34,758 nucleotides of DNA from an uncultured Bacteroidales bacterium. Lineage in GTDB: Bacteria > Bacteroidota > Bacteroidia > Bacteroidales > FEN-979. Positions 3,439-25,830 of this stretch are shown one piece after another. A program made the position numbers and the translations under genes. Each line of letters opens with the position of its first letter. Position 1 is the first letter of the stretch. Under the pieces are notes generated by a model, which was given only the letters and a program-made list of their open reading frames with translations, was not told where the DNA came from and made no database searches. The stretch lies in NCBI GenBank assembly GCA_903885595.1, contig CAISJJ010000225.1:1-34758 (forward strand), read 5' to 3'.

Positions 3439-3510
3439 ACCAACTTACCAACTTACCAACTTACCAGCTCACCAACTTACCAGCTTACCAGCTTACCAGC
3501 TTACCAACTT
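3439..3510. repeat. Octamer tandem array (ACCAACTT / ACCAGCTT), nine copies
   Basis: Nine uninterrupted 8-bp units: ACCAACTT at 3439, 3447 and 3455, ACCAGCTC at 3463, ACCAACTT at 3471, ACCAGCTT at 3479, 3487 and 3495, ACCAACTT at 3503. On the gldF coding strand the unit reads AAGTTGGT, i.e. phased GGTAAGTT. The last gldF codon and stop (TGG TAA) lie at the edge of the array and match its unit, so the array begins at the stop codon. It fills most of the gldF-gldG gap. It is a simple tandem repeat, with no spacers as a CRISPR array would have. Confidence 0.93.
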
Positions 3511-4240
3511 ACCACTTCCTGCTCTCCAGAGACAACTTTGTCATCAGGATGAAAATCACAGTTACACTTGCAAAATAAATCAGATCCCGCGTATCAATCA
3601 CCCCACGGCTCATCGCAGCATAGTGGGCGTTAAGACCAAGCGATTCAATGATCAGGCCAGCCTTTCCTGAAACAATGAACGTATAAACAAACTCGAAACC
3701 CATATAGAGAATGAAACTGATAAAAACTGCCAGGATAAATGAAATAATCTGGTTATCAGTTAATGATGAGGCAAAAATCCCAATGGCTACAAAACTTGCG
3801 CCCAGGAAAAACAACCCGATGTAAGACCCCCAGATGCTGCCTGAATCAAGATTGCCCGGAGGAAGACCCAATTGGTAAACTGAAAAGTAGTAAACCAGGG
3901 TCGGTAAAAGGGAGATAATCACCAGGACTACCCCTGCAAAATATTTTGCGAGAATAACCTGCAGATCGGTGAGCGGCTGGGTCATCAGCAATTCAAGCGT
4001 GCCGCTTTTTTTCTCATCTGCAAATGAACGCATTGTAATGGCAGGAATGAGGAAAAGAAATACAAAAGGAGCCAGAATAAATAAACCGTCGAGTCCTGCA
4101 AAACCAAAATCAAGGATGTTGAACTCCAGCGGAAATACCCATAGAAAAAGCCCTGTCATCAGCAGGAAAACAATCATGACGACATAGCCGATGAGTGAGT
4201 TTAAAAAACCATTGATCTCTTTCTTAAAAAGAGTAAACAT
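3509..4240 (-). CDS. gldF: GldF, permease subunit of gliding-type ABC transporter
   Basis: A 243-residue polytopic protein of ABC-2 type with about six hydrophobic helices (first near residues 14-36). It opens MFTLFKKEINGFLNSLIGYVV, typical of GldF, and carries the ABC-2 permease signature around residues 70-95: TMRSFADEKKSGTLELLMTQP, i.e. the 'EEKxxGTxELLLTxP' coupling motif that contacts the ATPase. Length matches the family. Function by family: membrane channel of the GldAFG transporter. It is followed by gldG, and preceded by mgsA 69 bp upstream; that gap holds a TAnnTTTG promoter element (4263-4270), so gldF probably starts its own transcript. The stop codon lies in the adjoining octamer array. 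Confidence 0.9.
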   Translation of the reverse strand: MFTLFKKEINGFLNSLIGYVVMIVFLLMTGLFLWVFPLEFNILDFGFAGLDGLFILAPFVFLFLIPAITMRSFADEKKSGTLELLMTQPLTDLQVILAKYFAGVVLVIISLLPTLVYYFSVYQLGLPPGNLDSGSIWGSYIGLFFLGASFVAIGIFASSLTDNQIISFILAVFISFILYMGFEFVYTFIVSGKAGLIIESLGLNAHYAAMSRGVIDTRDLIYFASVTVIFILMTKLSLESRKW

Positions 4241-4262
4241 AGACGCAATTGTTTAAGGGGTG

Positions 4263-4270
4263 CAAAATTA
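4263..4270 (-). promoter_or_regulatory. Probable gldF promoter -7 element
   Basis: On the minus strand the sequence reads TAATTTTG, matching the Bacteroidota -7 consensus TAnnTTTG, about 22 bp before the gldF ATG. A TTTG lies further upstream (4289-4286 on the minus strand), but only 15 bp separate it from the -7 element rather than the usual 19 or so. The sequence after the element (GCACCCCTTAAA) is nearly the same as that after the moxR element at 22526-22533. Confidence 0.55.
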
Positions 4271-4309
4271 GTATTTTTCACGCATCAAATTGCATTATGC
4301 CGTAACATT

Positions 4310-4777
4310 TCAGGGGATTTGCCGGGAAACATAACCTGAATAATCGACCAGGCGCGGTTCATAAGGCTCTTTGAGCAGATGCGAAGAGATCATGAAATCG
4401 GCGGTGGAACGATTGCATGCGGTTGGAATATTATACACAACTGTTATCCGCAGCAACGCCTTCACATCCACATCATGTGGCTGGGGCTGCATCGGATCCC
4501 AGAAAAAAATGAGCAGATCAATCTTGCCTTCTGAAATCATAGCGCCTAATTGCTGATCGCCACCCAGGGGGCCCGATTTCAACTTCAAGATATCAAAAGT
4601 GATCTTCTCCTCCTCCTCCAGTTTATTCAGGATCGTCTCCTCAACCAGTTTGCCGGTAGTACCTGTGCAAATCAGATGATGGCCAAGCAGGGTTTTATAG
4701 TTGAATTCAACCCATTCCACCAGATCTTTCTTGCGGTTATCATGCCCGACAAGTGCAATATTTTTTGATTTTTCCAT
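4310..4777 (-). CDS. mgsA: Methylglyoxal synthase
   Basis: A 155-residue cytoplasmic enzyme that converts dihydroxyacetone phosphate to methylglyoxal and phosphate, a bypass used when sugar phosphates accumulate. The family motifs are all present: ALVGHDNRK with the conserved histidine (H12), TGTTG at 38-42 (phosphate binding), SGPLGGDQQ at 68-76 with the catalytic Asp (D74), FFWDP at 91-95, and PHDVDVKALLR at 100-110, whose H101 and D104 match the E. coli active-site residues His98 and Asp101. Compared with E. coli there is an extra acidic stretch of about a dozen residues (around 51-63, EEEE) between the phosphate loop and the GGDQQ motif. It lies after the DUF62 gene across two heptamer arrays. 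Identification is firm. Confidence 0.95.
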   Translation of the reverse strand: MEKSKNIALVGHDNRKKDLVEWVEFNYKTLLGHHLICTGTTGKLVEETILNKLEEEEKITFDILKLKSGPLGGDQQLGAMISEGKIDLLIFFWDPMQPQPHDVDVKALLRITVVYNIPTACNRSTADFMISSHLLKEPYEPRLVDYSGYVSRQIP

Positions 4778-4781
4778 TTTA

Positions 4782-4834
4782 ATTAGGCATTAGGCATTAG
4801 GCATTAGGCAATTGGCATTAGGCATTAGGCATTG
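4782..4834. repeat. Heptamer tandem array (ATTAGGC), about seven copies
   Basis: Seven-base units ATTAGGC at 4782, 4789, 4796, 4803, 4817 and 4824, with a variant AATTGGC at 4810 and a partial unit at the right end. On the coding strand of the flanking genes the unit reads GCCTAAT. It ends a few bases before the mgsA start codon (4777-4775) and directly adjoins a second, unrelated heptamer array at 4835-4923, so the mgsA 5' leader is built almost entirely of repeats. Confidence 0.9.
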
Positions 4835-4923
4835 GTCACTTGTCACTTGTCACTTGTCACTTGTCACTTGTCACTTGTCACTTGTCACTTGTCACTTGTC
4901 ACTTGTCACTTGTCACTTGTCAC
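4835..4923. repeat. Heptamer tandem array (GTCACTT), over twelve copies
   Basis: Twelve perfect units GTCACTT from 4835 to 4918, then a partial GTCAC (4919-4923). On the minus strand, the coding strand of the DUF62 gene, the unit is GTGACAA. The TGA of the first partial unit (4920-4922) is the DUF62 stop codon. The copies are identical, which points to recent expansion or slippage. No spacers are present. Confidence 0.95.
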
Positions 4924-5699
4924 AGGATCTCCACCGTCACCAGCTGATCCATTTTCAGGCCTAACAAGCTGCCGGCCTTGCCTTCGCGAATGGCGATTTC
5001 AAGGTATCCGCTGCTGGAAAAAAGCGCCAGCATTACCCCGGGACTTACATCCTTGTATGATTTACTGATCTCACTAATGCTGTAATTCGCCGATCGGAAT
5101 GTGATTGAAAATTTATGATTTTTAACGATCGATCTGAACAGCGACTCGGTGATATTCACAAATGCATTTTCATAATTGTCAATATAAATAACCTTTCCCT
5201 TGATCATGTCTCCCTGAATAACCGGCTGGAAAGCCATTTTCTGGAGGATTTTATCCTTGGGATGACCAAGCGCCTCAATGGGTTTTCCGCTGGCGATATG
5301 GCAAGCCACCTTCACAAATACATCACGTGACGGGAAGGTAAAATAATCCGAATCCTGAATGATGTCCAGCTCAATTATTCTGGTTGGCTTATCATCAAAA
5401 AGCAATGAAAATATCCCATTATCGGCACCTATGAAATAGTGGCCATGATGAAATACCAGGGTATGAGGCGTTTCAATGGCCGCTTCGGTATTGATGGCCA
5501 GGATATGGATTGTTCCTTCGGGGTAATTCCGGTAAAAATTGCGTACGATAAAGGCCGCCTGGTTAAGGTCAAAGGCTGGTATATGATGTGAAATATCGAC
5601 AATTTGTGCCTCAGGCAGCAGGCGCAGGATCGCTCCTTTGACTGCTCCGGCATAATGGTCTTTGACTCCCCAGTCGCTGGTAAGCGTAATGATAGCCAT
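4920..5699 (-). CDS. DUF62 / S-adenosyl-L-methionine hydrolase (adenosine-forming)
   Basis: A 259-residue protein of the SAM hydroxide adenosyltransferase (DUF62) family, which splits S-adenosylmethionine into adenosine and methionine with water or hydroxide as nucleophile; it is a relative of fluorinase and chlorinase. Seen in the sequence: LTSDWGVKD at 6-14 (family 'FTSDFGxxD' motif), DISHHIPAFDLNQAAF at 35-50, and GADNGIFSLL at 91-100. The usual 'VVDPGVGT' segment is replaced by INTEAAIET at about 69-77. Length is normal. The gene is divergent from phoH with face-to-face promoter elements, and its stop codon is supplied by the GTGACAA array. Family assignment is firm; the physiological purpose is poorly known in the family. 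Confidence 0.9.
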   Translation of the reverse strand: MAIITLTSDWGVKDHYAGAVKGAILRLLPEAQIVDISHHIPAFDLNQAAFIVRNFYRNYPEGTIHILAINTEAAIETPHTLVFHHGHYFIGADNGIFSLLFDDKPTRIIELDIIQDSDYFTFPSRDVFVKVACHIASGKPIEALGHPKDKILQKMAFQPVIQGDMIKGKVIYIDNYENAFVNITESLFRSIVKNHKFSITFRSANYSISEISKSYKDVSPGVMLALFSSSGYLEIAIREGKAGSLLGLKMDQLVTVEIL

Positions 5700-5710
5700 G
5701 GAATTATTCG

Positions 5711-5718
5711 TACTTTTG
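5711..5718 (+). promoter_or_regulatory. Probable phoH promoter -7 element
   Basis: TACTTTTG matches TAnnTTTG and lies 24 bp before the ATG at 5743. It sits upstream of the ATG at 5743 but downstream of the alternative in-frame ATG at 5662, which argues against the longer start. No good -33 TTTG is seen. It faces the minus-strand element at 5725-5732 across 6 bp. Confidence 0.55.
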
Positions 5719-5724
5719 CGTATT

Positions 5725-5732
5725 CAAAGGTA
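5725..5732 (-). promoter_or_regulatory. Probable DUF62 gene promoter -7 element
   Basis: The minus strand reads TACCTTTG, matching TAnnTTTG, 25 bp before the DUF62 ATG at 5699. The region where a -33 TTTG would be expected is T-rich but not a match. The two divergent promoters share the same 60 bp. Confidence 0.5.
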
Positions 5733-5742
5733 CAAATTATTC

Positions 5743-6702
5743 ATGAGTGAGAAAATAATAAACATCGAAACCATTCACCCGCTTGATATTTTTGGCGCAA
5801 ATGATCAGAATCTAGCGGTGGTGCGCAATTTTTTTCCAAAGTTGAAAATCGTTTCCCGTGACAATTATGTCAAGGCATTTGGGGAGGAAGAAGATCTTCT
5901 CGACTTCGAGGCTAAATTTTCAACACTCCTTCTCTATTTCGAAAAATTTGGCCGGCTTACAAAATCCGATATTACACTTTTACTCGGGGCAGAATCAAAT
6001 GGATCCCAGATGGCCTCTGAAGGACAGCAGGATGTGCTGGTCCATGGCAAGAATGGCATGTTGATTCGGGCGCGGACTGCAAACCAGCGCAAACTTGTCG
6101 ACAGCTGTCTGAAAAACGACCTGGTATTTGCCATTGGCCCTGCCGGAACCGGGAAAACATATACCGCTGTTGCGTTGGCCGTGCGTGCCCTTAAAAACAA
6201 GGAGATTCAGCGCATCATTCTCACCCGGCCTGCGGTGGAAGCCGGTGAAAACCTCGGCTTTCTCCCCGGGGATCTGAAGGAAAAACTTGATCCATACATG
6301 CAGCCATTGTATGATGCGCTGGGTGACATGCTGCCGACACAAAAACTGCTGCAATACATCGAAGACCGTGTAATAGAGATCGCCCCGCTGGCTTTTATGC
6401 GCGGGAGGACGTTAAACAATGCCTTCGCAATTCTGGATGAAGCGCAAAATACCACTCCCGGGCAACTCAAGATGTTCCTCACCCGGATGGGAGCTTCCGC
6501 CAAATTTATTGTAACCGGTGATATTACCCAGATCGATCTCCCAAGGAACCAGGTGAGCGGATTGATGCATTCGCAGGAGATACTGAAAAACATCCATGGC
6601 ATCGACTTCGTATATCTTGACAAATCAGACATCATCCGTCACAAGTTGGTAAGCAGGGTTATTGAGGCCTATGAAAAAGACAAAGTTCCAGCTGCCAAAT
6701 GA
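5743..6702 (+). CDS. PhoH family ATPase
   Basis: A 319-residue cytoplasmic P-loop ATPase. Walker A GPAGTGKT is at 132-139 and Walker B AILDEAQN at 229-236, with the family segment TRPAVEAGENLGFLPGDLKEK around 161-181 and FIVTGDITQIDLP near 255-267. The N-terminal part (about 1-110) matches the usual PhoH N-terminal region. PhoH-like proteins bind and hydrolyse ATP and are often linked to RNA metabolism, frequently near ybeY, which is not seen here. The frame is open upstream to 5662, but I chose the ATG at 5743 because the longer form would overlap the divergent DUF62 gene and cross the promoter element at 5711-5718, and because MSEKIINIE is a natural family start. Confidence 0.93.
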   Translation: MSEKIINIETIHPLDIFGANDQNLAVVRNFFPKLKIVSRDNYVKAFGEEEDLLDFEAKFSTLLLYFEKFGRLTKSDITLLLGAESNGSQMASEGQQDVLVHGKNGMLIRARTANQRKLVDSCLKNDLVFAIGPAGTGKTYTAVALAVRALKNKEIQRIILTRPAVEAGENLGFLPGDLKEKLDPYMQPLYDALGDMLPTQKLLQYIEDRVIEIAPLAFMRGRTLNNAFAILDEAQNTTPGQLKMFLTRMGASAKFIVTGDITQIDLPRNQVSGLMHSQEILKNIHGIDFVYLDKSDIIRHKLVSRVIEAYEKDKVPAAK

Positions 6703-6762
6703 ATCACCAGGGTGATTGCCAAAGACAAACCTGGAGGAACTAACTGAATCCATAAAACATGG

Positions 6763-8256
6763 TCACTCATTTCGACTTTCATCCTGAGCTTCCCCAACCG
6801 GTGGCCTTATACTATCATCCTGCCGCACAAAAAGGATGTATTGCCAGGTTGGCAAGTTTATTTTCATGTATCCTGGCGGACTACCGAAATTGAGTGATTT
6901 ATCAACAATACAGTAGCGTTTTTTATAATCACCCTCCAGGCTAATGCTGTAATAACGCGCCAGATAACATTGTAAACTCCAGTCATTCCACATTTCCCGT
7001 GGAATAGAAACAATCGATTGTGGCGGAACAAACGCCCCTATCAGGTAAACATCATGCAGCAACTCCTTATTTCTGCTTGTTTTGCCTATTTGCATCAGCG
7101 TAATTCCAATTGCAGAAATAAAAAGGAATAAGCTCATCAACAATAAAATTCTGAATTTTATGCTGCCTGGGTGCGCTCGCTCTGTCAGATTATAAATTAT
7201 GGGTCCGATTAAAACCGCTAGCCCAATCGCAAAGAAAGGAAGAGCAGGAACAAAATAAAAACCCTTCTGCACCATTGTTAGCATCAGCGGCAAGGAAGAT
7301 GCTAATCCAACGCCAATGAAAAAGAGCGATTCACGGATTTGTTCAGAAAAACGGTCATTGATTTTTTTGATCCTTGCAATAAATATAATGATACCGACAA
7401 ATATAATTTGGGGTAATAGTTCCGTAAAAAGTCGGTACAAAATATAAAATCTTGAATCAACAGTCGGCACTTCGTTTATTCTGTGCAATGCTCTTTTGAA
7501 TAAATAAATTGACAAACTTTCTTTGCTTTCCGGCATCAGAAATAATATTGCATAGATTATAACAGGTACAAGGGTTATTATAAGGGACTGAACAATTGCA
7601 TTTGAGAATGTTATTTTTCTGATCGTGAGCCAATAAATCAAAGGAACAATGATCGGAAAAAATCCCGGAAATCCCTTGCTTAGCGTGGCCAGAAATACAG
7701 ATACACCTGCCAGTATCCATTTGACCACCTGGTATCTCCCGGCACGAAATGATTGAACAATGAAAATCACCGCTGCAAGAGTAAAAATCCCCATGGTGTT
7801 TTCGTGCATATTATTTGAATAGGACCAAAAGCATACAGGAACCGTTATCCATAAAATAATCGGGAGCCAGCCAATCCGTTTCAAATTATCATTATTTCGA
7901 AAAACCTCCTTCCATAGTACATTTATTAAAATGCCCCCTATGCACATGGTTAAGAAAGTATAAAACCGTTCTACATACAAACTGTCGCCAAACAATTTAA
8001 AGAACAAAGATTGAATACCAAAAACAAGAGGCGGCTGTTCATGAAAGGAAGATAACCCGGCTATATTGTAAACACTGAAATGAGGGAACCAGAATGTTCC
8101 GATACCTTTGCTCAGATTATGCGATACACTGGTATACAGCATCGCATCCATAAACATTCCATCTTGTATTAGTGTCGGTAGCGTTAAACCGACCATTATA
8201 CTAAAAGCAAGCAGCCAATAGGGGGTTTGCTGGTTAAAAAGGAGCTTTTTAAACAT
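6763..8256 (-). CDS. GT39-type (ArnT/PMT-like) membrane glycosyltransferase
   Basis: A 497-residue protein with about ten to twelve hydrophobic helices. The first periplasmic loop has acidic residues D32 and D37 (QDGMFMDAMLY) after the first helix, and FHEQPPLVFG at 71-80, which fits the 'HPPL' region of GT39/ArnT-like GT-C enzymes that use polyprenyl-phosphate sugars to glycosylate lipids or proteins at the outer side of the inner membrane. Acceptor and sugar cannot be read from the sequence. It converges with phoH, 60 bp apart, and no clear promoter element is visible upstream. It could also be described as a general 'dolichyl-phosphate mannosyltransferase family' protein; the GT-C fold assignment is the firm part. 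Confidence 0.75.
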   Translation of the reverse strand: MFKKLLFNQQTPYWLLAFSIMVGLTLPTLIQDGMFMDAMLYTSVSHNLSKGIGTFWFPHFSVYNIAGLSSFHEQPPLVFGIQSLFFKLFGDSLYVERFYTFLTMCIGGILINVLWKEVFRNNDNLKRIGWLPIILWITVPVCFWSYSNNMHENTMGIFTLAAVIFIVQSFRAGRYQVVKWILAGVSVFLATLSKGFPGFFPIIVPLIYWLTIRKITFSNAIVQSLIITLVPVIIYAILFLMPESKESLSIYLFKRALHRINEVPTVDSRFYILYRLFTELLPQIIFVGIIIFIARIKKINDRFSEQIRESLFFIGVGLASSLPLMLTMVQKGFYFVPALPFFAIGLAVLIGPIIYNLTERAHPGSIKFRILLLMSLFLFISAIGITLMQIGKTSRNKELLHDVYLIGAFVPPQSIVSIPREMWNDWSLQCYLARYYSISLEGDYKKRYCIVDKSLNFGSPPGYMKINLPTWQYILFVRQDDSIRPPVGEAQDESRNE

Positions 8257-8418
8257 AATATTATGTGATTATATGACCATGCGTAACGGGAATCGTACCT
8301 TGTCAAATCATTGAAGCCAGCGAAAATCCGTTATATTGCTGACATTTAATGTATTGTAAATCACTCGTTTTGATTTAGACTTTTCTCAGGGTAAAGATAT
8401 GAAATACCCATAAGAAAA

Positions 8419-8529
8419 ATGTTCCTTCGGCGCAAAATGCTCCTGAACTTCATCGTTCTGCCCATATTTAGCTCCTGCAAAACGTATGGAAGAAGGTCTC
8501 TGCTCCAAATGTTAAATTCAATGGAATAA
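8419..8529 (+). CDS. Candidate micro-ORF with lipoprotein-like signal (36 residues)
   Basis: An ATG at 8419 opens a 36-codon frame ending in TAA at 8527-8529. It begins MFLRRKMLLNF, i.e. a basic N-terminus followed by a hydrophobic run (IVLPIF) and then SSC at residues 18-20, an arrangement like a lipoprotein signal peptide with a cysteine to be lipidated, then a short polar, basic tail. The residue before Cys is Ser and position -3 is Phe, so the lipobox is imperfect. There is no good promoter element. It could be a tiny lipoprotein, the relic of a longer one, or chance. No homology judgement is possible. Confidence 0.2.
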   Translation: MFLRRKMLLNFIVLPIFSSCKTYGRRSLLQMLNSME

Positions 8530-8592
8530 TAGCGCTCCATAAATTATGGAAATCCCATAGTTTGACTCAGACCCCCGACTGGAAATATTTCT

Positions 8593-8600
8593 TACATTTG
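8593..8600 (+). promoter_or_regulatory. Probable promoter -7 element of the 8619 gene
   Basis: TACATTTG matches TAnnTTTG and lies 18 bp before the ATG at 8619. The longer in-frame ATG at 8562 lies upstream of this element, so the element decides the start in favour of 8619. No -33 TTTG at the usual distance. Confidence 0.5.
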
Positions 8601-8618
8601 TTATACAATGTAAAAACA

Positions 8619-9305: not shown

Positions 9306-9348
9306 GTAATCCCCGAAACTCTAATGTTTGAGTTCTAAAAAATGAGTT

Positions 9349-10026
9349 CTAAAAAAAAACTTCGAGCAGAAGTTCTCTGAGCGATGCATAGGTGTGCGAC
9401 AAAATACAATGAATTGCATTGGGATGTGTCCACTTTACCAGAAAAATGCCCTCACTGGTCTGAGGTTTTAATATCTGAGCACTATCGGCCTCCATTTCGA
9501 ACCACATTGTTTGTTTAAGGATCCGTTTATCCTTTATTGTGTATGTATGCCATGTGGATGGAAGATCCTTAACAATTTTCACCGATTTTAGCCCGGTCTC
9601 CTCTTTTACTTCACGAATGGCGGCATTGCGCGCCCATGAAGGATGAGGCTTTAATATGGTATCATCCCAGGCCAGTAAAGGAAACTGTTTTTCTGAAGAG
9701 GTTTTATTTTGAAAATCCTTTTTATCTATTTTTCCTTTTGGTAAGTCCCAATGACCTAAACGATGTATAAACAAATATTCTCCTTTTTCATTTTTAACGA
9801 GGCCACCCGCGGCAGGAATATATTTTAACAAGGATGCAAAAGCCTGAAATGCTGACTCTTGACCGATAATCCAAAGATTGAGAAATTTTTCATATCTCTC
9901 GAAATCCGCATAGGCCTCCTGAAGTTTCTCAACCGATTCATATTTTACAACCATTTCGGATGCGAGGAGATTATCAGGGGCGATTTTGACGAATTGAATT
10001 GTCCGTTCGTTCAGGAAAATTTTCAT
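9349..10026 (-). CDS. Nudix domain protein with an interrupted Nudix box
   Basis: A 225-residue protein. After an N-terminal part of about 65 residues (starting MKIFLNERTIQFV) comes a Nudix domain: AAGGLVKNEKGEYLFIHR at 72-89, WDLPKGK at 93-99, and REVKEETGL at 138-146, the helix bearing the catalytic metal-binding glutamates. In a standard Nudix box (G-x5-E-x7-REUxEExGU) the arginine lies 14 residues after the glycine; here G98 to R138 is 40 residues, so about 26 residues are inserted in the loop, and the first Glu position is Asp-like (DKKD). Nudix enzymes hydrolyse nucleoside diphosphate derivatives; the substrate here cannot be told. It is divergent from pyrE and converges with the 8619 gene. 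Confidence 0.85.
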   Translation of the reverse strand: MKIFLNERTIQFVKIAPDNLLASEMVVKYESVEKLQEAYADFERYEKFLNLWIIGQESAFQAFASLLKYIPAAGGLVKNEKGEYLFIHRLGHWDLPKGKIDKKDFQNKTSSEKQFPLLAWDDTILKPHPSWARNAAIREVKEETGLKSVKIVKDLPSTWHTYTIKDKRILKQTMWFEMEADSAQILKPQTSEGIFLVKWTHPNAIHCILSHTYASLRELLLEVFF

Positions 10027-10099
10027 GAATGAATAATTTATATGGTAAAAATACGTTTTTTCACTGATTCCATAAGACAGTTAGTCCATCAATTTTTAT

Positions 10100-10107
10100 T
10101 ATCTTTG
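10100..10107 (+). promoter_or_regulatory. Probable pyrE promoter -7 element
   Basis: TATCTTTG matches TAnnTTTG, 26 bp before the pyrE ATG at 10134. No -33 TTTG is seen at the expected distance. Confidence 0.5.
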
Positions 10108-10133
10108 TACCAGAAATTATCAAATTTGTTTCA

Positions 10134-10763: not shown

Positions 10764-10816
10764 CCAAAAAGATTTAATAACCTATCAACTGCAACTCTTT
10801 TAACATTTTGTTAAAT

Positions 10817-10848
10817 AAAAAAAGACTGCCGAAAAGCAGTCTTTTTTT
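10817..10848. terminator. Strong bidirectional intrinsic terminator
   Basis: A perfect 13-bp inverted repeat: seven A, GACTGC (10824-10829), loop CGAAAA, GCAGTC (10836-10841), seven T. With a T-run on both strands it can end pyrE transcription on the plus strand and transcription of the convergent T9SS gene on the minus strand. It is in the 105-bp gap between the two stop codons. Confidence 0.92.
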
Positions 10849-10868
10849 ATTTGAGATATTTCTAATGG

Positions 10869-13682: not shown

Positions 13683-13785
13683 ATTACTCGTTTTTATGAT
13701 GACTTATATGTTTTTGATTATTATTTCCTAAACCCGCTAAAATCAGTGTACATAGGGTTATTAAACCGCATTGTTTTAAAACGAA

Positions 13786-16514: not shown

Positions 16515-16557
16515 ATGGTCGGTCTATAATAAGTTCAGGGTGTGGGACATGATACGA

Positions 16558-17238: not shown

Positions 17239-17265
17239 TTTCGGGTTTAAAAACTTATCGACTGA

Positions 17266-18294: not shown

Positions 18295-18353
18295 TAGTTA
18301 AGTATTAAGAGTTAAGTACGATACAATTTTAAAAAAAATTCATGCTGCAGGGA

Positions 18354-19349
18354 TCAGGGAATGTTTTTTAAATATAAATATCTTAAAAGCATTTCCATCC
18401 CGATTAAGATAAAAGCTACCAAAACAAAAGGTAAATATTCTTCTTTTTTCTTCCGGAATTCGGTCACATCAATTTTTGATTTCTCCAGTTTGTCAATCTC
18501 CTGGTAAATGGAGCGTAATTTGGCATTGTTGGTGGCACGAAAATATTTTCCATCGGTGCCTTTTGCAACCTCCATTAACAGCGGTTCATCAATTTCAACC
18601 TTCATCATCTGCGTTTGCATACCAAATGGCGTTTGCACCGGATAAGGGGCCTGTCCCATGCTCCCAACCCCGATTGTATAAATGCGTATTCCGTAAAGCT
18701 TCGCAATTTCAGCTGCTGAACGCGGGTCAAGCGAACCCATGTTATTATTACCATCTGTAAGTAAAATGATCACTTTACTGATGGCTTTGCTGCCACGAAG
18801 GCGATTTACTGCGGTTGCCATGCCGTCACCCAGCGCTGTGCCATCATCGATCATGCCACTGTGAATATCCCTGAACAGATTCTTAAGCACCGAATGGTCG
18901 GTAGTGAGCGGGCATTGTGTAAAAGTTTCTCCGCTAAAGATTACCAGTCCGATGCGATCGTTGGGCCGCCCGTCGATAAATTCGATCGCAAGGTCCTTGG
19001 AGGCTTCAAGCCGGTCGGGTTTAAAATCCATCGCCAGCATCGATCCGCTTACATCCAGGGCTAGGATAAGGTCGATACCCTCAACACTGATATCCTGACG
19101 GCTGAGACTCGTCTGGGGACGTGCCAATGCAATAATCAGCAGTGTTAACGCCATTAACCTTAAGATATAAAGGCCGTGGTAGGTGTAAAACTTCAGATTC
19201 CGCCCTACCTGGGCAAATCCAATTGTGGTACTCACCTGAAGATCGGCTGTATATCTTTTTTTCCGGTAGAAATACCAGGCCGCCAGCACAGGTATGACCA
19301 GGAGGAGGAACAGGAAGCCGGGATTGCCGAATGTCAGCGATTTAAACAT
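18354..19349 (-). CDS. batA: BatA: von Willebrand factor A membrane protein
   Basis: A 331-residue VWA protein with N-terminal helices (about 11-28 and 57-75), a VWA domain whose MIDAS is DVSGS (99-103), then DDGTALGDGMA around 165-175 and TDGNNN near 200, and a C-terminal helix (about 305-325). It is the paralogue of batB and first of the batABCDE series here. It begins after a heptamer array (19354-19388) only 5 bp before the start codon. Family role: envelope complex with MoxR; the phenotype (aerotolerance) was reported for Bacteroides, not shown here. Confidence 0.9.
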   Translation of the reverse strand: MFKSLTFGNPGFLFLLLVIPVLAAWYFYRKKRYTADLQVSTTIGFAQVGRNLKFYTYHGLYILRLMALTLLIIALARPQTSLSRQDISVEGIDLILALDVSGSMLAMDFKPDRLEASKDLAIEFIDGRPNDRIGLVIFSGETFTQCPLTTDHSVLKNLFRDIHSGMIDDGTALGDGMATAVNRLRGSKAISKVIILLTDGNNNMGSLDPRSAAEIAKLYGIRIYTIGVGSMGQAPYPVQTPFGMQTQMMKVEIDEPLLMEVAKGTDGKYFRATNNAKLRSIYQEIDKLEKSKIDVTEFRKKKEEYLPFVLVAFILIGMEMLLRYLYLKNIP

Positions 19350-19353
19350 ATTT

Positions 19354-19388
19354 CAGACTCAAAATTCAAAATTCAAAATTCAAAACTC
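19354..19388. repeat. Heptamer tandem array (AAAATTC), about five copies
   Basis: AAAATTC at 19361, 19368 and 19375, with AAAACTC at 19382 and CAGACTC at 19354. It lies immediately upstream of batA, on the coding strand reading GAATTTT, and is AT-rich. It is a shorter array than those at 4835 and 25562. Confidence 0.75.
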
Positions 19389-19488
19389 ATAACCACAAAT
19401 CAAAATTACAAACTGATCGTATCAAACAAATTTCTAATGTCAAACCTATATTTATAGCCATGATCAGGCATCAAAAATCAACTGGTTT

Positions 19489-20481: not shown

Positions 20482-20511
20482 CTTGATTCTTCACCATATA
20501 TGATTATAGTG

Positions 20512-20539
20512 AATTAGTAATTTTTAATTAGTAATTTTA
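20512..20539. repeat. Two 14-bp direct repeats (AATTAGTAATTTT)
   Basis: AATTAGTAATTTTT (20512-20525) is followed by AATTAGTAATTTTA (20526-20539). It is in the short gap between the DUF58 stop and the start of the next gene of the operon, and is AT-rich. Confidence 0.6.
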
Positions 20540-20548
20540 AATTTTCAC

Positions 20549-21424
20549 TTATCTCCTTGCACTCCTTTTCCTGAAAAGTCCCATCAGGGGTTTGATATAA
20601 TCCTGATTCGTGGCAATTTTTGCAACATCCACACCACTTCGCAGGAAGGTATCATTCAGGTATTCGCTATGCGCAGCATACCAATTGTTATATTGGCGCC
20701 GAACTTTGCGGTCGGATGAGTCTATCCATATCTGCTTGTTTGCTTCCGGATCGCGGGCACGGATCAGCCCTACATCGGGCAGCTCAAGTTCACGATCATC
20801 ATAAATCCGGACAGCAATCAGGTCATGTTTTTTATTTGCGATCTTGATCGCATCTTCAAATCCCCGGTCCAGAAAGTCGCTCAGCAGGAAAGCAGTACAC
20901 CTTTTCTTTATTGCATTGGTAAGGTACCGCAATGGTTCTGTGAGGTTAGTTCCCTGTTGCTGGGGTCTGAATTCGATCAGCTCACGGATTATGCGCAGAA
21001 TGTGCGAGGTTCCTTTTTTAGGAGGAATGAATTTTTCAACTGTTTTACTAAAGAAAAGCACACCGACTTTATCATTATTCTGGATCGCGCTGAAGGCCAG
21101 CACAGCTGCAATTTCAGTTATCACCTCCTGTTTGAGGGTTTTCTGTGTGCCATACGAGTTCGATGCGCTGACATCAATCAGGAGCATCACTGTTAATTCA
21201 CGTTCTTCATCGAAAATTTTTATATAGGGATGATTGAAGCGGGCAGTAACGTTCCAGTCAATGCTGCGGATATCGTCACCGGGCTGGTATTCCCGAACTT
21301 CCGAAAAAGCCATCCCCCTGCCCTTGAAGACAGAATGGTATTGCCCGGAGAAGATCTGGTTACTCAATCCCCGGGTTTTAATTTCAATTTTCCGAACTTT
21401 CTTGAACAGTTCTGCGGATTCCAT
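20549..21424 (-). CDS. DUF58 domain protein (MoxR-associated VWA)
   Basis: A 291-residue cytoplasmic protein with the DUF58 signature REYQPGDDIRSIDWN at about 44-58, then a VWA-like fold with DVSAS at 84-88. DUF58 proteins nearly always accompany MoxR ATPases. It starts MESAELFKKVRKIEIKTRGL, characteristic of the Bat group, and lies 88 bp downstream of moxR across two octamer arrays that form a hairpin. It probably supports MoxR-driven assembly of the Bat proteins (inferred). Confidence 0.92.
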   Translation of the reverse strand: MESAELFKKVRKIEIKTRGLSNQIFSGQYHSVFKGRGMAFSEVREYQPGDDIRSIDWNVTARFNHPYIKIFDEERELTVMLLIDVSASNSYGTQKTLKQEVITEIAAVLAFSAIQNNDKVGVLFFSKTVEKFIPPKKGTSHILRIIRELIEFRPQQQGTNLTEPLRYLTNAIKKRCTAFLLSDFLDRGFEDAIKIANKKHDLIAVRIYDDRELELPDVGLIRARDPEANKQIWIDSSDRKVRRQYNNWYAAHSEYLNDTFLRSGVDVAKIATNQDYIKPLMGLFRKRSARR

Positions 21425-21432
21425 ATTTTGTT

Positions 21433-21510
21433 AGGTAGTGAGGTAGTGAGGTGGTGAGGTGGTGAGGTGGTGAAATTTCGCTATTTCGCCACCTCGCTAT
21501 TTCGCTGATT
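21433..21510. repeat. Two opposed octamer arrays forming a hairpin
   Basis: GAGGTAGT / GAGGTGGT units run from 21433 to 21472 (five copies), then CGCTATTT / CGCCACCT units from 21479 to 21510 (about four, last degenerate). GAGGTGGTGAAAT (21464-21476) pairs with ATTTCGCCACCTC (21483-21495), 12 of 13 positions, around a TTCGCT loop. It lies just after the moxR stop (21513-21515) and before DUF58, so it could attenuate readthrough between the genes or protect the upstream RNA; no T-run follows the stem on the coding strand. Confidence 0.8.
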
Positions 21511-21512
21511 TT

Positions 21513-22505
21513 TTAGGGAACTTCAACCGTATTTAAAATCTCATTGATAATATCTTCTGAAGTGATATTTTCTGCTTCAGCTTCGTAGGTGAGGCCAATC
21601 CGGTGGCGGAGAACATCGTGTGCAATGGCCCGGATATCTTCAGGAATTACATAACCACGGCGTTTGATAAACGCATATGCTTTCGCTGCAAGGGCAAGAT
21701 AAATGCTTGCGCGGGGAGATCCGCCATAGCTGATAAGTCCGACAAATTTCTTTAGTTTATAATCGGCCGGAAAACGGCTGGCAAATACAATATCGGTAAT
21801 ATAATTTTCAATCTTTTCATCCAGGTAGACCTCGCGTGCAATAGCCCTTGCACGCATAATATCTTCGGTAGTTATGATCGGGCTGGTTTTGAAGGTTTCG
21901 TTGCCGATGTTCTGCCGGATGATCATTTTTTCTTCTTTTTTATCAGGGTAACCGATTACCACCTTGAGCATGAAACGGTCAACCTGGGCCTCAGGCAGCG
22001 GATAGGTACCTTCCTGTTCGATAGGGTTCTCCGTGGCAAGAACCAGGAATGGTTCGGGTAAAAAGAAGGTTTCGTCTCCGATGGTAACCTGTCGTTCCTG
22101 CATGGCTTCAAGTAAAGCGCTCTGCACTTTAGCCGGGCTCCTGTTTATTTCATCGGCAAGGATAAAGTTGGCGAAAATGGGTCCCTTACGCACCTTAAAC
22201 TCCTCGTTTTTCTGACTGTAGATCAGGGTGCCTAGCAAGTCGGCAGGAAGAAGGTCGGGTGTGAACTGGATGCGACTGAATTTTGCTTCGATGCAATTCG
22301 CCAGTGATTTTATTGCCAATGTTTTAGCCAATCCCGGCACACCTTCTAACAGAATGTGTCCATTTGCTAATAATCCAATCATCAGGCGTTCAATCATCTG
22401 TTTCTGTCCAATGATGACCTTGTGCATTTCCATGGTCACCATATCGACAAATGCGCTTTCTTTTTGGATCCTTTCGTTCAATTCTTTGATGTCAGTTTCA
22501 AACAT
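21513..22505 (-). CDS. MoxR family AAA+ ATPase of the bat operon
   Basis: A 330-residue ATPase with Walker A GVPGLAKT at 55-62, Walker [10 protein letters not shown] at 114-122, sensor 1 [22 protein letters not shown] around 157-178, and the usual MoxR C-terminal region. MoxR ATPases act as chaperone-like machines that insert cofactors or assemble VWA proteins. It leads the bat operon, with its own -7 promoter element (22526-22533) and a GTTAA box cluster further upstream. Ends in NTVEVP. Identity firm; the client proteins are inferred from the operon. Confidence 0.93.
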
Positions 22506-22525
22506 GATATTGTTATTTAAGGGTG

Positions 22526-22533
22526 CAAATTTA
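22526..22533 (-). promoter_or_regulatory. Probable bat operon promoter -7 element
   Basis: The minus strand reads TAAATTTG, matching TAnnTTTG, 20 bp before the moxR ATG, then GCACCCTTAAAT, nearly as at the gldF element. A -33 TTTG is not at the usual distance. Upstream on the minus strand there are GTTAA boxes (22566-22609). Confidence 0.55.
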
Positions 22534-22565
22534 TTAAATGCAAAAAACGTACAGCATATAATGAT

Positions 22566-22609
22566 GTTAATATTTGTTAACCATTTCGTTAAAAAAATGT
22601 TAATGTTAA
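22566..22609. promoter_or_regulatory. Phased GTTAA box cluster upstream of moxR
   Basis: GTTAA occurs on the plus strand at 22566, 22576, 22588, 22599 and 22605, spaced 10, 12, 11 and 6 bp. Four copies follow roughly one helical turn, between the rlmH stop and the moxR promoter element. It may be an operator or simply an AT-rich stretch; no known regulator is recognised. Confidence 0.3.
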
Positions 22610-22624
22610 TGGCACTTCCTGGCT

Positions 22625-23098
22625 TTATTCATGATGGTAGGATTCTCCCCGGAGGATAGTAAGCGCCCTATATAGCTGTTCAGTAAAGAACAGCCGTATC
22701 ATTTGGTGAGAAAACGTCATTTGTGAGAGAGAAAGTATGAATGATGCTTTTTTTTTCAAACTTTCGTCAAAACCAAATGGCCCCCCCACTGCAAAAAGCA
22801 GGTTTTTATTGCCTGAAATGAACTGTCTGTTCAGAAAGGATGCAAATTCAACCGACCGCATCTCTTTCCCACGTTCATCGAGCAGGACGAGGATATCTCC
22901 CGTTTGAATATATTTACTGATCATTTCCGATTCGCGATGGTTTTGTTCCTGTTGTGAAAGGTTTGCGGCATTCTTAACCGCAGGAATTTCGGTAAGTTCA
23001 AAAGGAATGTATCTTTTAATGCGTGTTTCATACTCGCGTATTCCTGCCTTCAGGAAATCTTCTTCAGTTTTTCCAATAAGTAAGAGCCTGATTTTCAT
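22625..23098 (-). CDS. rlmH: 23S rRNA pseudouridine-1915 N3-methyltransferase
   Basis: A 157-residue SPOUT methyltransferase that methylates pseudouridine 1915 of 23S rRNA on the assembled ribosome. The SAM-binding knot segments VGGPFGFD (104-111), LSLSQMTFSHQ (122-132) and the family end YHHE (154-157) are all visible. Length is standard. It lies upstream of moxR on the same strand but the 119-bp gap holds the moxR promoter. The region upstream of it carries the second inverted-end element (23130-23191). Identification is firm. Confidence 0.95.
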   Translation of the reverse strand: MKIRLLLIGKTEEDFLKAGIREYETRIKRYIPFELTEIPAVKNAANLSQQEQNHRESEMISKYIQTGDILVLLDERGKEMRSVEFASFLNRQFISGNKNLLFAVGGPFGFDESLKKKASFILSLSQMTFSHQMIRLFFTEQLYRALTILRGESYHHE

Positions 23099-23129
23099 GT
23101 GTTAGTATTTATTTTTTACAAAACGGTCA

Positions 23130-23191
23130 CATGGAATACCCATATTATAATTCACGGTTTGCATTAACACAGTTAGGCTGGATATTTGATA
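23130..23191. repeat. Small intergenic element with inverted-like ends (copy 2)
   Basis: Begins CATGGAATACC (23130-23140), identical to the 1610 copy, includes ATTCACGGTT (23149-23158), and ends GGATATTTGAT (23180-23190), which matches the other right end at 8 of 11 positions. The distance between ends agrees with copy 1 within 2 bp. Non-coding, in the 204-bp gap between divergent rlmH and the DUF4783 gene. Confidence 0.5.
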
Positions 23192-23229
23192 ATTCTGATA
23201 CAAAGATGAGAAATTTGGACGAATTTTTG

Positions 23230-23237
23230 TAAATTTG
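23230..23237 (+). promoter_or_regulatory. Probable promoter -7 element of the DUF4783-nadC-yihY unit
   Basis: TAAATTTG matches TAnnTTTG, 65 bp before the DUF4783 ATG at 23303. A TTTG lies at 23214-23217, closer than usual. No such element is seen before nadC or yihY, supporting one transcript. Confidence 0.5.
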
Positions 23238-23302
23238 TGAAAGCATTTAACATGGAGATCTGTTTTCAACTATCAATAAGTTGCATTTAAATTATCAATC
23301 CT

Positions 23303-23710
23303 ATGAAAAAAAACTCTTTCAACCTGATTGCATTGATGATCCCCGCCTTTCTCTTAATTAATTTTTTTTCCATTGCAGGCCCGGAGGAAACCGCAACGAT
23401 GGTTACAACTGCAATCCAGGCAGGTAATGCAGCTGATGTTTCGAAACACTTCAATGCAATGGTTGATCTGACCCTTCCGGGCTACGACGATTCTTACAGT
23501 AAAGCCCAGGCAGGCCAGATCATGAAGGAATTTTTCGCTCAAAACCCGGTGAAAAGTTTTAAAATCACCCGGCAGGGATCATCCCCCGACGGTTCACAAT
23601 ACTCGATCGGCACCCTCGACTCAGGCAAAAAAGTATTCAGGGTCTATTTTTTAATCAAATCGGTGAATGGTCAAAATCTTCTTCAACAGCTGCAAGTTCA
23701 GGAGAATTAA
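23303..23710 (+). CDS. DUF4783 secreted protein
   Basis: A 135-residue protein with a signal peptide (MKKNSF, hydrophobic 9-24, then a processing site near SIAGPEE). The mature part fits the DUF4783 family (NTF2-like small domain), common in Bacteroidota next to nadC: AIQAGNAADVSKHFNAMVDLTLPG and MKEFFAQNPVKSFKI, ending QLQVQEN. It is periplasmic or secreted. The function is unknown. nadC follows after 73 bp and yihY after that, a conserved-looking trio. Confidence 0.85.
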   Translation: MKKNSFNLIALMIPAFLLINFFSIAGPEETATMVTTAIQAGNAADVSKHFNAMVDLTLPGYDDSYSKAQAGQIMKEFFAQNPVKSFKITRQGSSPDGSQYSIGTLDSGKKVFRVYFLIKSVNGQNLLQQLQVQEN

Positions 23711-23783
23711 CGATTTAATCATGCACATCTGTTTGATTTAATAACATCACTTAACCTAACACCTAATCATTCAGGCTTTTTTA

Positions 23784-24617
23784 ATGACAATTGACGAAAT
23801 TTTAGACAGGGCTTTGGCTGAAGATCTCGGTGATGGCGATCATACAACGATGGCAACCATTCCGCAGGAAGCACAGGGGATGGCAAAATTGCTAGTAAAG
23901 GATAATGGTGTGCTGTGTGGCGTTATTATAGCCGAGCGGATTTTTCACAAGGTCGATCCGGCACTCCAATTATATATATATCATTATGATGGTGCATTAA
24001 TCAAAAAGGGGGATATCGTTTTTGAAGTGCGCGGGCGTCAAGCCTCCATCCTTAAAGCTGAGCGCCTGGTTCTGAATTTCATGCAGCGGCTTAGCGGGAT
24101 CGCTACATCCACAAATTTGATTGTCAGGAAACTTGACGGACTAAAAACAAAAATCCTGGATACAAGAAAAACCACTCCCCTGCTGCGTTCCCTTGAAAAA
24201 TATGCCGTGAAAACAGGGGGCGGTGAAAACCACCGGATGGGTTTGTTTGATATGATCATGATCAAGGATAACCATGTGGATTTTGCCGGTGGGATAGTAA
24301 AAGCCATCGATGCAGTGCATACCTACTTCGGGCAAAGCGGTACAAAGCTGTTGATCGAGATCGAAGTAAGAAATTTTGCCGAGTTGCAGCAGGTGCTGAA
24401 TCATGGGAAAGTTGATCGGATCATGCTTGACAACTTTTCTCCGGAACATCTCAGGGAAGCTGTTAAGCTTATTGACGGCCGATTTGAAACCGAAGCCAGT
24501 GGCGGAATTAACGAGTCAAATGTTCGATCATACGCAGAGACGGGGGTAGATTACATTTCGATGGGAGCCCTTACGCATCAGATCAGAAGCCTCGACATGA
24601 GCTTAAAGGCGGAATAA
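23784..24617 (+). CDS. nadC: Nicotinate-nucleotide pyrophosphorylase (carboxylating)
   Basis: A 277-residue cytoplasmic enzyme making nicotinate mononucleotide from quinolinate and PRPP in NAD synthesis. Motifs: AERLVLNFMQRLSGIAT at 92-108, DTRKTTP at 126-132, KTGGGENHRMGLFDMIMIKDNH at 143-164 (read in two parts: KTGGGENHRMGLF and DMIMIKDNH), IEIEVRN, and EASGGIN near 238-244. Length is normal. nadA and nadB are not in the window. It lies 11 bp upstream of yihY. Confidence 0.96.
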   Translation: MTIDEILDRALAEDLGDGDHTTMATIPQEAQGMAKLLVKDNGVLCGVIIAERIFHKVDPALQLYIYHYDGALIKKGDIVFEVRGRQASILKAERLVLNFMQRLSGIATSTNLIVRKLDGLKTKILDTRKTTPLLRSLEKYAVKTGGGENHRMGLFDMIMIKDNHVDFAGGIVKAIDAVHTYFGQSGTKLLIEIEVRNFAELQQVLNHGKVDRIMLDNFSPEHLREAVKLIDGRFETEASGGINESNVRSYAETGVDYISMGALTHQIRSLDMSLKAE

Positions 24618-24628
24618 AAGCAACTGAA

Positions 24629-25759
24629 ATGCCCCTCCCAAAACACCTGTCTGATCGGCTGCTCGCCTGGTTTCCCGTAGCCTCGGGGCTGAAAATTTCA
24701 AAGCGTATCTCACTGCCTGGATTCGACGGAGTGCCAATTTATGATGTTGGTGTCTTTTTTTACCGTGGATTGACTGAAGGCTACATCACATCGCGGGCAG
24801 CTGCCATATCTTATTCTGTTTTCCTTGCTATTTTTCCCTTCCTTATTTTTCTTTTTACTATCATCCCATTTATCCCGATCGAAAACTTCCAATTTTCACT
24901 TCTTGGAATCATCAAGGATTTTATGCCCAGATTGGCATATGAATCGGTACAGGATACTATCATTGACATTGTAACAAGGCCCCGCAGCAGCCTGTTAATC
25001 CTGAACCTTATCCTGACCCTTTACTTTTCTACCAATGGCGTAAACAGCCTTATCGAAGCCTTTAACAACACATACCATTCGATTGAAACCCGTACGAGTT
25101 TTAAACAGTATCTGATCTCCGTTATTATTGTTCTGATCAATAGTTTTCTGCTGATTATCGCCATTGGCTTGATCACCTTCGGGTCTTCCCTGTTATCATG
25201 GTTACTGCCCGACAGCATTGAAAACAGTGCAATTATGATCTTCCTGCTGCAATTGCTGCGTTGGCTGATCATCCTCGGATTGCTTTTGATGGCCATTTCA
25301 ATTATTTATTATCTGGCCCCGGCCAAACATAAATCTTTTCGATTTCTCACGGCAGGCTCTCTGTTAGCCACAATACTTATCGTGATCACCACACTCGGAT
25401 TTAATTTTTATGTGGATAATTTTGCGAGTTACAATGCCCTTTACGGTTCACTTGGTACGCTGATGATCGTGCTGGTGTGGATTTATATCAATGCCATAAG
25501 CCTGATCGTGGGATTTGAACTTAATGCAAGCATACGGACAGCAGTGAAGGATGAAATTACAGGGACGCGGGACATCGGAATCGGGACACGGGACACGGGA
25601 CGCGGGACAAAGAACACGGGACGCGGGACGCCGGACAAAGAACACGGGACACAGGACACGGGACACGGGACGCGGGACAAAAACGGGACACGGGACGCGG
25701 GACACGGGACAAAAACGGGACACGGGACGCGGGACACGGGACAAAAAAAAGGGGGATAA
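24629..25759 (+). CDS. YihY/UPF0761 membrane protein with repeat-encoded C-terminal tail
   Basis: A 376-residue protein. Residues 1-310 are a normal YihY/UPF0761 family protein: amphipathic start, YFRGLTEGYITSRAAAISYSVF region (about 44-66), and six or so membrane helices, with the family signature FLAIFPFLIFLF and ALYGSLGTLMIVLVWIYIN. The usual C-terminus falls near residue 308 (ASIRTAVKDE). Residues from about 312 to 376 are a repetitive tail of G/T/R/D-rich heptads (GTRDTGR, GTRDTGH type), encoded by GGGACRC tandem repeats (25562-25747). The tail has no counterpart in the family as I know it. Function: integral inner membrane protein; a general role is not well established. Reads in the nadC unit. 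Confidence 0.88.
   Translation: MPLPKHLSDRLLAWFPVASGLKISKRISLPGFDGVPIYDVGVFFYRGLTEGYITSRAAAISYSVFLAIFPFLIFLFTIIPFIPIENFQFSLLGIIKDFMPRLAYESVQDTIIDIVTRPRSSLLILNLILTLYFSTNGVNSLIEAFNNTYHSIETRTSFKQYLISVIIVLINSFLLIIAIGLITFGSSLLSWLLPDSIENSAIMIFLLQLLRWLIILGLLLMAISIIYYLAPAKHKSFRFLTAGSLLATILIVITTLGFNFYVDNFASYNALYGSLGTLMIVLVWIYINAISLIVGFELNASIRTAVKDEITGTRDIGIGTRDTGRGTKNTGRGTPDKEHGTQDTGHGTRDKNGTRDAGHGTKTGHGTRDTGQKKGG
25562..25747 (+). repeat. Heptamer array (GGGACAC / GGGACGC) inside the yihY 3' end
   Basis: About 26 heptamers of GGGACRC, with degenerate units (GGGACAA, GGGACAT, GAACAC) and small insertions, run from 25562 to 25747. A 32-bp block is duplicated exactly: 25684-25715 and 25716-25747. Because the unit has 7 bases, reading frame advances through all phases, and the unit has no stop codon in any forward phase, so the encoded protein repeats every 7 residues (GTRDTGH-like). 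All within the yihY frame, ending at TAA 25757-25759. Confidence 0.93.
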
Positions 25760-25802
25760 ATTACAGAACAATCGATGACTGGCCATGCCCCGGGCGTTAT
25801 TG

Positions 25803-25830
25803 GTCACGCGTCACGTGTCACGCGTCACGG
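25803..25830. repeat. Short heptamer array (GTCACGC), four copies
   Basis: GTCACGC at 25803, GTCACGT at 25810, GTCACGC at 25817 and GTCACGG at 25824. On the minus strand (flippase coding strand) it reads GTGACGC, and encodes the last flippase residues TVTRDT plus the stop TGA (25811-25813). It faces the yihY array across the short convergent gap. Confidence 0.88.

Follow-up and report, generated by a model that had tools for sequence, protein, structure and literature searches.

Tandem arrays in the window

The window, a stretch of 34,758 bp (contig CAISJJ010000225.1, here C225) from the 6.02 Mb draft genome of an uncultured Bacteroidales bacterium (547 contigs), carries genes for Por secretion tail, BatA/VWA and ABC transporter proteins and, in and beside the junctions of its genes, tandem arrays of 7- and 8-bp units. 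Within a repeat family it is usually one and the same strand that points away from whichever gene is closest, be it from that gene's start or from its stop. Tandem Repeats Finder recovered, with slightly different ends, every array listed in a first-pass annotation made from the sequence alone, and added one at 20512-20543. Genes were called with a small in-house hexamer gene finder, whose stops in the window are those of the long open reading frames.

An octamer array on the minus strand (3439-3514; outgoing unit AAGYTGGT, 9.5 copies; log-likelihood ratio (LLR) of 1.93 under a polarity model, described below, built without the window) leaves the stop of a GldF-like ABC-2 permease gene (3509-4240, minus strand), which, following the first-pass annotation, we take to be gldF; that the array begins at the gene's stop had been correctly noted. 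The next gap holds two heptamer arrays facing each other one base apart. The first, ATTAGGC (4782-4833, plus strand, 7.4 copies; LLR 0.36), leaves the start of an MGS-domain gene (4310-4777, start at 4777) on the strand opposite to the gene, and the second, with 12.7 perfect copies of GTGACAA (4835-4923, minus strand, forward-strand unit GTCACTT; LLR 0.95), includes the stop of the SAM hydroxide adenosyltransferase (SAM_HAT/DUF62) gene (4920-5699, minus strand). Further on, a TCAAAAT array (19359-19412, plus strand; LLR 0.40) leaves the start of the VWA/BatA gene (18354-19349, start at 19349). The DUF58 gene (20549-21424, start at 21424) has at its stop the additional array, of AATTACT/AATTAAA type (20512-20543, minus strand, 7 bp; LLR 0.45), and at its start an octamer array of AGGTAGTG/AGGTGGTG (21433-21473, plus strand; LLR 0.97). 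The latter faces an octamer array of AGCGAAAT/AGCGAGGT (21475-21511, minus strand; Tandem Repeats Finder unit ATTTCGCT), which leaves the stop of the MoxR-type AAA gene (21513-22505).

A GGGACRC array with a 32-bp higher-order repeat and A-runs (25562-25747, plus strand; the array ends at 25743 according to Tandem Repeats Finder, and the 32-bp row extends to 25747) forms the in-frame C-terminal tail of a YihY/BrkB-family gene (24629-25759, plus strand, 376 aa) and encodes about residues 312-373. Matches to YihY stop at residue 305-318 of 376 in 18 of the 18 other genus genomes, which bears out the suggestion that the array replaces the original end of yihY. It is faced by a CGTGACG/CGTGACA array (25803-25829, minus strand, forward-strand unit GTCACGY; LLR 1.63), which holds the final codons and the stop of a polysaccharide flippase gene (25811-27277, minus strand); the DUF62 and flippase stops thus both lie inside arrays, as had been claimed. 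For annotation this carries a warning, as arrays can make C-terminal tails (about 60 residues in YihY) and supply stop codons; the low-complexity tail of YihY (GTRDTG-like, residues ~312-373) is a mere array translation that risks being annotated as a domain extension.

Arrays entered the statistics when their lag identity was at least 0.70, so that those at 21475-21511 (0.69) and 25562-25747 (0.68) are not among the 169 arrays counted below. All six intergenic window arrays that pass this filter obey the outgoing rule under the model built without the window, and the flippase array, at the 3' end of its coding sequence, does likewise. The first-pass annotation had placed the arrays at gene ends in the orientation of the gene, which holds for the stop-side arrays; since those at 4782-4833, 19359-19412 and 21433-21473 adjoin starts, on the opposite strand, that description does not cover all of them.

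Abundance and placement in the genome

The sample of the window's own genome comprised about 969 kb including the window; part of it had been chosen for matching the yihY array, and the unselected contigs amount to 463 kb with 51 arrays. At a Tandem Repeats Finder score threshold of 40 it contains 169 arrays of period 7 or 8, 122 of 7 bp and 47 of 8 bp, with 3.0 to 44.6 copies (median 5.6), compared with 0 arrays of period 7 or 8 in one block-wise Markov-shuffled copy of the same 969 kb, which served as the chance control. The arrays are confirmed as a real feature of the genome; from the unselected contigs (110 arrays per Mb) roughly 660 are expected per genome. When periods from 5 to 12 were counted separately, period 7 accounted for 107 and period 8 for 42 of 157 arrays.

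Most arrays (128 of 169) lie in gaps between called genes; 21 are inside genes, six at coding 3' ends, one at a coding 5' end and 13 at contig edges. The first-pass annotation had staked its case on arrays not being equally frequent inside genes, and their density is indeed 0.03 per kb of coding DNA against 1.14 per kb of gap. Convergent gaps are the richest (1.60 per kb), followed by co-directional (1.33) and divergent ones (0.46), and the distance to the nearest gene peaks below 10 bp, with 26 of the 128 gap arrays overlapping a gene and 41 within 10 bp. The placement of phase-variation repeats, in the 5' coding part or promoter, is not the one seen here, with one of 169 arrays at a coding 5' end and divergent gaps the poorest. 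Some 7-bp arrays of this genome lie inside long putative reading frames, on contigs C7, C129 and C303 (17240-17491 of C303, in a 2.9 kb frame).

The same unit strand usually leaves the genes

A G skew could be defined for 86 arrays; in 64 of them the G-rich strand has its 5' side towards the gene, and in 22 away from it. Where an array adjoins a stop, its G-rich strand coincides with the coding strand in 44 cases and with the opposite one in 11; beside starts it is opposite to the gene in 20 and the same in 11. Because it flips at starts, the bias is not a coding-strand rule but one set by the closest gene boundary. Of the expectation that units cluster at stops with a coding-strand bias, the clustering at gene boundaries and the bias at stops therefore stand, and its extension to starts does not. 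Background strand skew was ruled out as a cause, as no such skew is seen near stops (non-array intergenic G skew -0.04 near stops, -0.10 near starts).

The same polarity was recovered by a model that makes no assumption about G. It is based on how frequent each 5-mer is when arrays are read in the direction away from the closest gene, and it was tested by leaving out one gap at a time. The 128 gap arrays agree with the outgoing orientation in 101 cases and disagree in 26, one being undecided; this agreement of 0.795 compares with a mean of 0.50 and a maximum of 0.62 in 200 random-flip sets. A model trained on stop-side arrays orients the start-side ones 46:8, and the reverse transfer gives 59:14 with one undecided. 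The rule is kept with one array per gap (74:20), in 7-mers (70:20) and 8-mers (31:6), on the unselected contigs (29:11) and in convergent gaps (16:2). Neighbouring arrays within one gap face inward in 20 cases and outward in two, run in the same direction in ten and are undefined in one.

In other genomes (G-numbers denote genomes and L-numbers loci of the comparison sample, which includes 19 genus genomes, one per species, G000 being the window's own), G skew follows the rule 12:1 at the other Bacteroidota loci L092-L148, 10:1 in stretches of distant members of the phylum (four genomes, regions chosen near GKGAC matches, with arrays in gaps in three of the four) and 6:0 in G262, where the model trained on the window's genome gives 5:0. 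Overlapping duplicates (e.g. L217/L230, L219/L232, L221/L233, L211/L224) led us to leave the genus pattern loci out of the evidence (14:6 in skew, 19:8 with the model), and L150-L168 (one array, against the rule) and L235-L241 (2:1 by model) were too small for use.

A limited repertoire with genome-specific spellings

The arrays belong to a limited repertoire of units common to unlinked sites: units are identical in 307 pairs of 7-mers, where 7.4 were expected, and in 56 pairs of 8-mers (0.25 expected). The units are chemically diverse and include GGGACRC, GTGACRC, TTTACGA, CAAAATG and GAGGTAGC. Three tandem copies of GKGACRN have 581 matches in the window's genome, compared with 4 for the reversed pattern, and are present in 14 of the 19 genus genomes with up to 870 matches (G013); no match was found in the remaining five (G002, G005, G006, G009, G010). 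Beyond the genus, the pattern was matched in four of the 118 further genomes sampled from the order (G022, G046, G093, G110) and in 18 of the 197 remaining genomes sampled from the phylum. Among the genus genomes the GCTGGTAA pattern is found in three of 19 and GARRTRGYG in 16 of 19.

Spelling differs between genomes. The GKGAC family reads GGGACRC and GTGACRC in the window's genome, GTGACGG and GTGACGC in G013, GTGACRA in G262, G242 and G277/G254, and, among the matches listed, nearly throughout GGGACGA in G015. For 62 arrays, taken one per 2 kb, the spelling distance is 1.14 within and 1.55 between genomes, the largest shuffled difference being 0.16. Dialects shared in this way presuppose either a common template or exchange from locus to locus. 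The first-pass annotation had supposed that arrays grow out of each gene's own end; as unlinked loci of one genome share their spelling, this is not simply so. Within the window's genome, A-runs separate GKGAC blocks at 28 loci and T-runs at two.

Several further families were noted beside these. The reversed control pattern, and not the forward one, matched in the Bacteroidales genomes G061 (25+6) and G048 (8+7), where other heptamer families may exist. A locus of a distant Bacteroidota member (L290) holds TGGGTAC-type and GGTTTTA-type arrays (5366-5444 and 9340-9387), the latter resembling eukaryotic telomere units, and one gap of L085 (3707-3978) contains a long mixed array of TTTATAAAG/CGTAAAG-like, AGTCACAG and GATGCTG units. 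Outside the class and within the phylum, G262, G242, G254 and G277 are rich in GTGACRA, while others of their genera, such as G246 (beside G242) and G285 (beside G254), have no match.

Turnover at orthologous gaps

The DUF62-MGS adjacency, found in 13 relatives, illustrates how differently one gap can be occupied. It is a bare gap of 11-14 bp in seven of them and an array-free gap of 25-39 bp in L074, L076 and L082; L069 carries 99 bp of CCTATTG-type units (about 14), L078 four GTGACRC units and L071, by eye, GTGAC-like units, compared with the 12.7 GTGACAA units facing 7.4 ATTAGGC units of the window.

The gldF-gldG junction was read by eye in 15 relatives, those in which the two genes could both be located. 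There, GAAA-type octamers (GAAATAGC, GAAACAGC, GAAATTGY) lie flush with the stop in five of six relatives with a TGA stop (L071, L076, L080, L082 and L087; not L081) and in none of nine with a TAA stop, of which L069 has such a unit farther on. The window's gldF ends in TAA, and its array there is AAGYTGGT. A second junction, likewise inspected by eye, pointed the same way. The gldF-gldG comparison suggests that the local gene-end sequence may pick the array unit, with the reserve that the counts are not independent because the species are related. In L151, too, the flippase junction is convergent and ends in GTGACGC units.

Origin of the arrays

The arrays are best described as non-coding simple sequence drawn from a limited repertoire of 7- and 8-bp units, and we think that they are mostly without function for the cell. 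That starts and stops are left by one and the same strand suggests that what sets the gene side of a gap apart concerns DNA and not RNA. Our tentative explanation, to which we give a probability of roughly 40%, is that repair synthesis, primed by the strand on the gene side, copies arrays from one site to another and that slippage then alters their size. An array would be copied from site to site within the genome, as the clumping of units and the dialects suggest, so that one spelling comes to stand at unlinked loci, and it would take hold at the boundaries of genes, frequently at places whose own sequence is similar to the unit, as the gldF-gldG junction suggests. The new units would be laid on the strand that has the gene at its 5' side: at a break or stalled fork, the gene-side 3' strand would find an ectopic array through a few bases of match, prime its copying and then rejoin. 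Such priming would make the same unit strand leave starts and stops and would produce the inward-facing pairs. Copy number would subsequently drift by slippage; mismatch repair corrects long slippage loops poorly (compare PMC4060949). Selection would finally clear arrays from genes and promoters, in keeping with the density differences.

A number of results weigh against this explanation or against the generality of the polarity on which it builds. The analysis caught neither a break nor a stalled fork nor an act of copying. Ku had no match in 19 of 19 genus genomes, so that end joining by Ku was rejected and joining would need another route. Only two of the 20 inward pairs abut (1 bp), the others being 12-539 bp apart; joining of two extended ends is thus not seen directly, and the variant in which both ends are extended and then joined, which predicts abutting pairs, was set aside. 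No purity gradient runs along the arrays, where directional growth might leave one; growth with a decaying tail was likewise discarded, the small excess of degenerate units being alike in both flanks. GC-balanced arrays follow the rule at starts (21:2) and hardly at stops (11:8), divergent gaps (9:4) are few and not significant, and the start codons were those of the in-house gene caller. For GARRTRGY, with 17 arrays from two genomes, the dialect test gave a difference not above shuffles, and the A-run feature is absent from G013 and G262 (A-run/T-run loci 0/3 and 2/0). Among other genomes, the window-trained model, which knows solely the families of its own genome, gave 11:5 at L092-L148 and 9:4 in the distant phylum stretches; the named genus loci reached 9:2 by G skew (p 0.07) and 12:4 by the model, G013 was not significant by either (15:9 and 16:10), and the DUF62 array of L069 opposes the model (LLR -0.78). 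Taken with the skew ratios given above, these values indicate that the rule, when read from G skew, generally points the same way, though its strength is uneven.

The chief rival, which we consider rather unlikely, dispenses with copying and has each array arise by independent slippage from a local seed, followed by two selective filters. At starts the G-rich orientation would be removed, as it would place additional start codons or RNA rich in G in the leader, and at stops the coding-strand orientation would be favoured for reasons of transcript or translation stop. That seven is the commonest unit length agrees with models of slippage (Mrazek 2007, according to PMC4679880 and PMC4692102), the gene-end sequence matches the unit at gldF-gldG, and the fact that GC-balanced arrays obey the rule mainly at starts suits separate filters. 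So does the distribution of stop triplets, which outgoing units hold at stops in 40 of 74 cases, against 15 of 74 on the other strand, and at starts in 26 of 54 against 22 of 54. The polarity nevertheless persists in units without stop triplets (26:8) and in units without start triplets (35:10; start-side part 15:2), which rules out codon-based filters alone, and it is strong in convergent gaps, where no start exists. Two separate filters would moreover need to mirror each other on the same families, given the 46:8 transfer from stops to starts, and independent slippage does not predict a spelling common to unlinked loci yet differing between genomes.

It is improbable, in our view, that the arrays are a selected 3'-end or boundary element, whether a terminator, an RNA stabiliser, a G-quadruplex or a Chi-like, orientation-dependent protein site protecting genes. 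The consistent orientation, the proximity to genes and the low density between divergent genes would fit such an element, and related G-rich heptamers form G-quadruplexes in vitro (Rehm et al., PMC4692102), a source in whose account a regulatory role could not be identified. Against it, orthologous gaps in relatives are empty or hold a different family, units as unlike as GGGACRC, TTTACGA and CAAAATG are involved, and five of the 19 genus genomes lack a match to the GKGACRN pattern. Hairpin terminators were rejected, since in 18 of the 20 inward pairs the two units differ by more than one mismatch; a long hairpin would be possible only in the other two, whose units belong to one family (one mismatch at most).

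Very improbable is a dedicated mobile or terminal-addition enzyme that writes the units, such as a telomerase-like reverse transcriptase or a RAYT/Y1 transposase, in spite of the limited repertoire, the outward G-rich strand, the genome dialects and the patchy distribution that would suit one. The reverse-transcriptase profile RVT_1 was not found in G013 (870 GKGAC matches, 97% complete) or G011 (39 matches), and only below cut-off in G016 (298 matches); these are draft genomes searched with one profile, in which absence is not proof. Y1_Tnp was not found in the array-bearing drafts G015, G011 and G008, again with one profile, hairpins and REP-like tetranucleotides not having been searched. 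As neither profile tracks the array load, both origins were rejected. A broader idea, which we offer as speculation and rate lower still, is a template-using process, present in several phyla, that would extend the gene-side 3' strand in intergenic breaks with short G-leaning units, in the manner of internal telomere addition; it could be the common cause of the Bacteroidota, cyanobacterial and Xanthomonas arrays and of their outward polarity, its enzyme not being a recognised RVT_1. Assembly artefact or chance can practically be dismissed, for although short reads can mis-size arrays in a 547-contig draft and contig-end windows hold arrays somewhat oftener than internal ones (5/84 against 59/2284, p 0.07, weak grounds for the rejected notion that arrays cause the contig breaks), the shuffled sample was empty, related families recur in independent drafts, and the YihY tail and the DUF62 and flippase stops are read through arrays in frame.

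Comparison with known systems

The first-pass interpretation is partly supported. Its pointer to the short tandemly repeated repetitive (STRR) sequences of cyanobacteria was a fair lead: in Calothrix PCC 7601, STRR comprise several tandem heptanucleotides in one chromosome (mentioned in PMC4692102), and both there and here (122 7-mer arrays in 969 kb) they occupy many loci. The host here belongs, by its gene content and its named relatives, to the Bacteroidales and so to a different phylum, and the placement rule described by Rehm et al. (2015, PMC4692102) lies nearer. Among the papers listed in a search that left subscription journals largely outside, no further one dealt with such arrays in Bacteroidota or in this lineage, or with inward-facing pairs of many families.

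Other systems share single traits. According to PMC4679880, Mrazek (2007) found heptanucleotides to be the commonest long simple sequence repeats in most genomes and proposed slippage; strand relative to the nearest gene and sharing between loci, both seen here, are not mentioned in that description. Simple repeats have also been surveyed by phylum (Huang and Mrazek 2014, PMC4060949). The TAACTGA arrays reported as patchy over Beggiatoaceae, cyanobacteria and five Bacteroidetes (MacGregor 2015, PMC4679880) resemble the present ones in their patchiness, in long arrays accompanied by other heptamers and in matching gaps that are empty in some close relatives; as described there, those of the Guaymas Beggiatoaceae, where one unit was followed, are mostly just upstream of starts, whereas here both boundaries and many units are involved. 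In Geobacter metallireducens, 49 sites carry a GGGACCG element of four units (PMC2700814), likewise a tandem GGGAC-type heptamer at many loci, which in that report occurs also inside genes and is proposed to be regulatory.

Repetitive extragenic palindromic (REP) sequences and bacterial interspersed mosaic elements (BIME) are dispersed intergenic units, often in inverted pairs, associated with a RAYT transposase. The present arrays are equally dispersed, intergenic and paired; they differ in being tandem heptamers and octamers, with Y1_Tnp not found in the three genomes named above.

As far as the account of Rehm et al. (2015, PMC4692102) goes, the arrays are a broader variant of the placement type described in it. 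There, intergenic GGGAATC and GGGGA(C/T)T heptamers of Xanthomonas and Nostoc/Anabaena sit for the most part on the coding strand no more than 50 bp from a stop, into which some of them reach, and on the non-coding strand before starts; they are under-represented between divergent genes, most lie between the same genes in two xanthomonads, four is the preferred copy number, and no function was found. The present arrays are alike in being intergenic (128/169 in gaps), rare between divergent genes (0.46 per kb), and on the coding strand after stops (44:11) and the non-coding strand before starts (20:11). They differ in that the GGGNATC/GGGGAYT unit with its G-quadruplex potential and the preference for four copies do not recur; instead, there are many 7- and 8-bp families, including GC-balanced and A/T-rich ones, in Bacteroidota, with a rule that transfers from stops to starts, inward pairs, dialects and differing occupancy of orthologous gaps. 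The strand preference is now seen in a third phylum and across many 7- and 8-bp families, including those without G runs; together with the use of the same strand at starts and stops, this argues against a purely transcript-level or G-quadruplex explanation and indicates a directional process at the level of DNA. As arrays turn over within one genus, in which five of 19 genomes have no match to the GKGACRN pattern and others hundreds, this process can be dated, mapped and correlated with genes.

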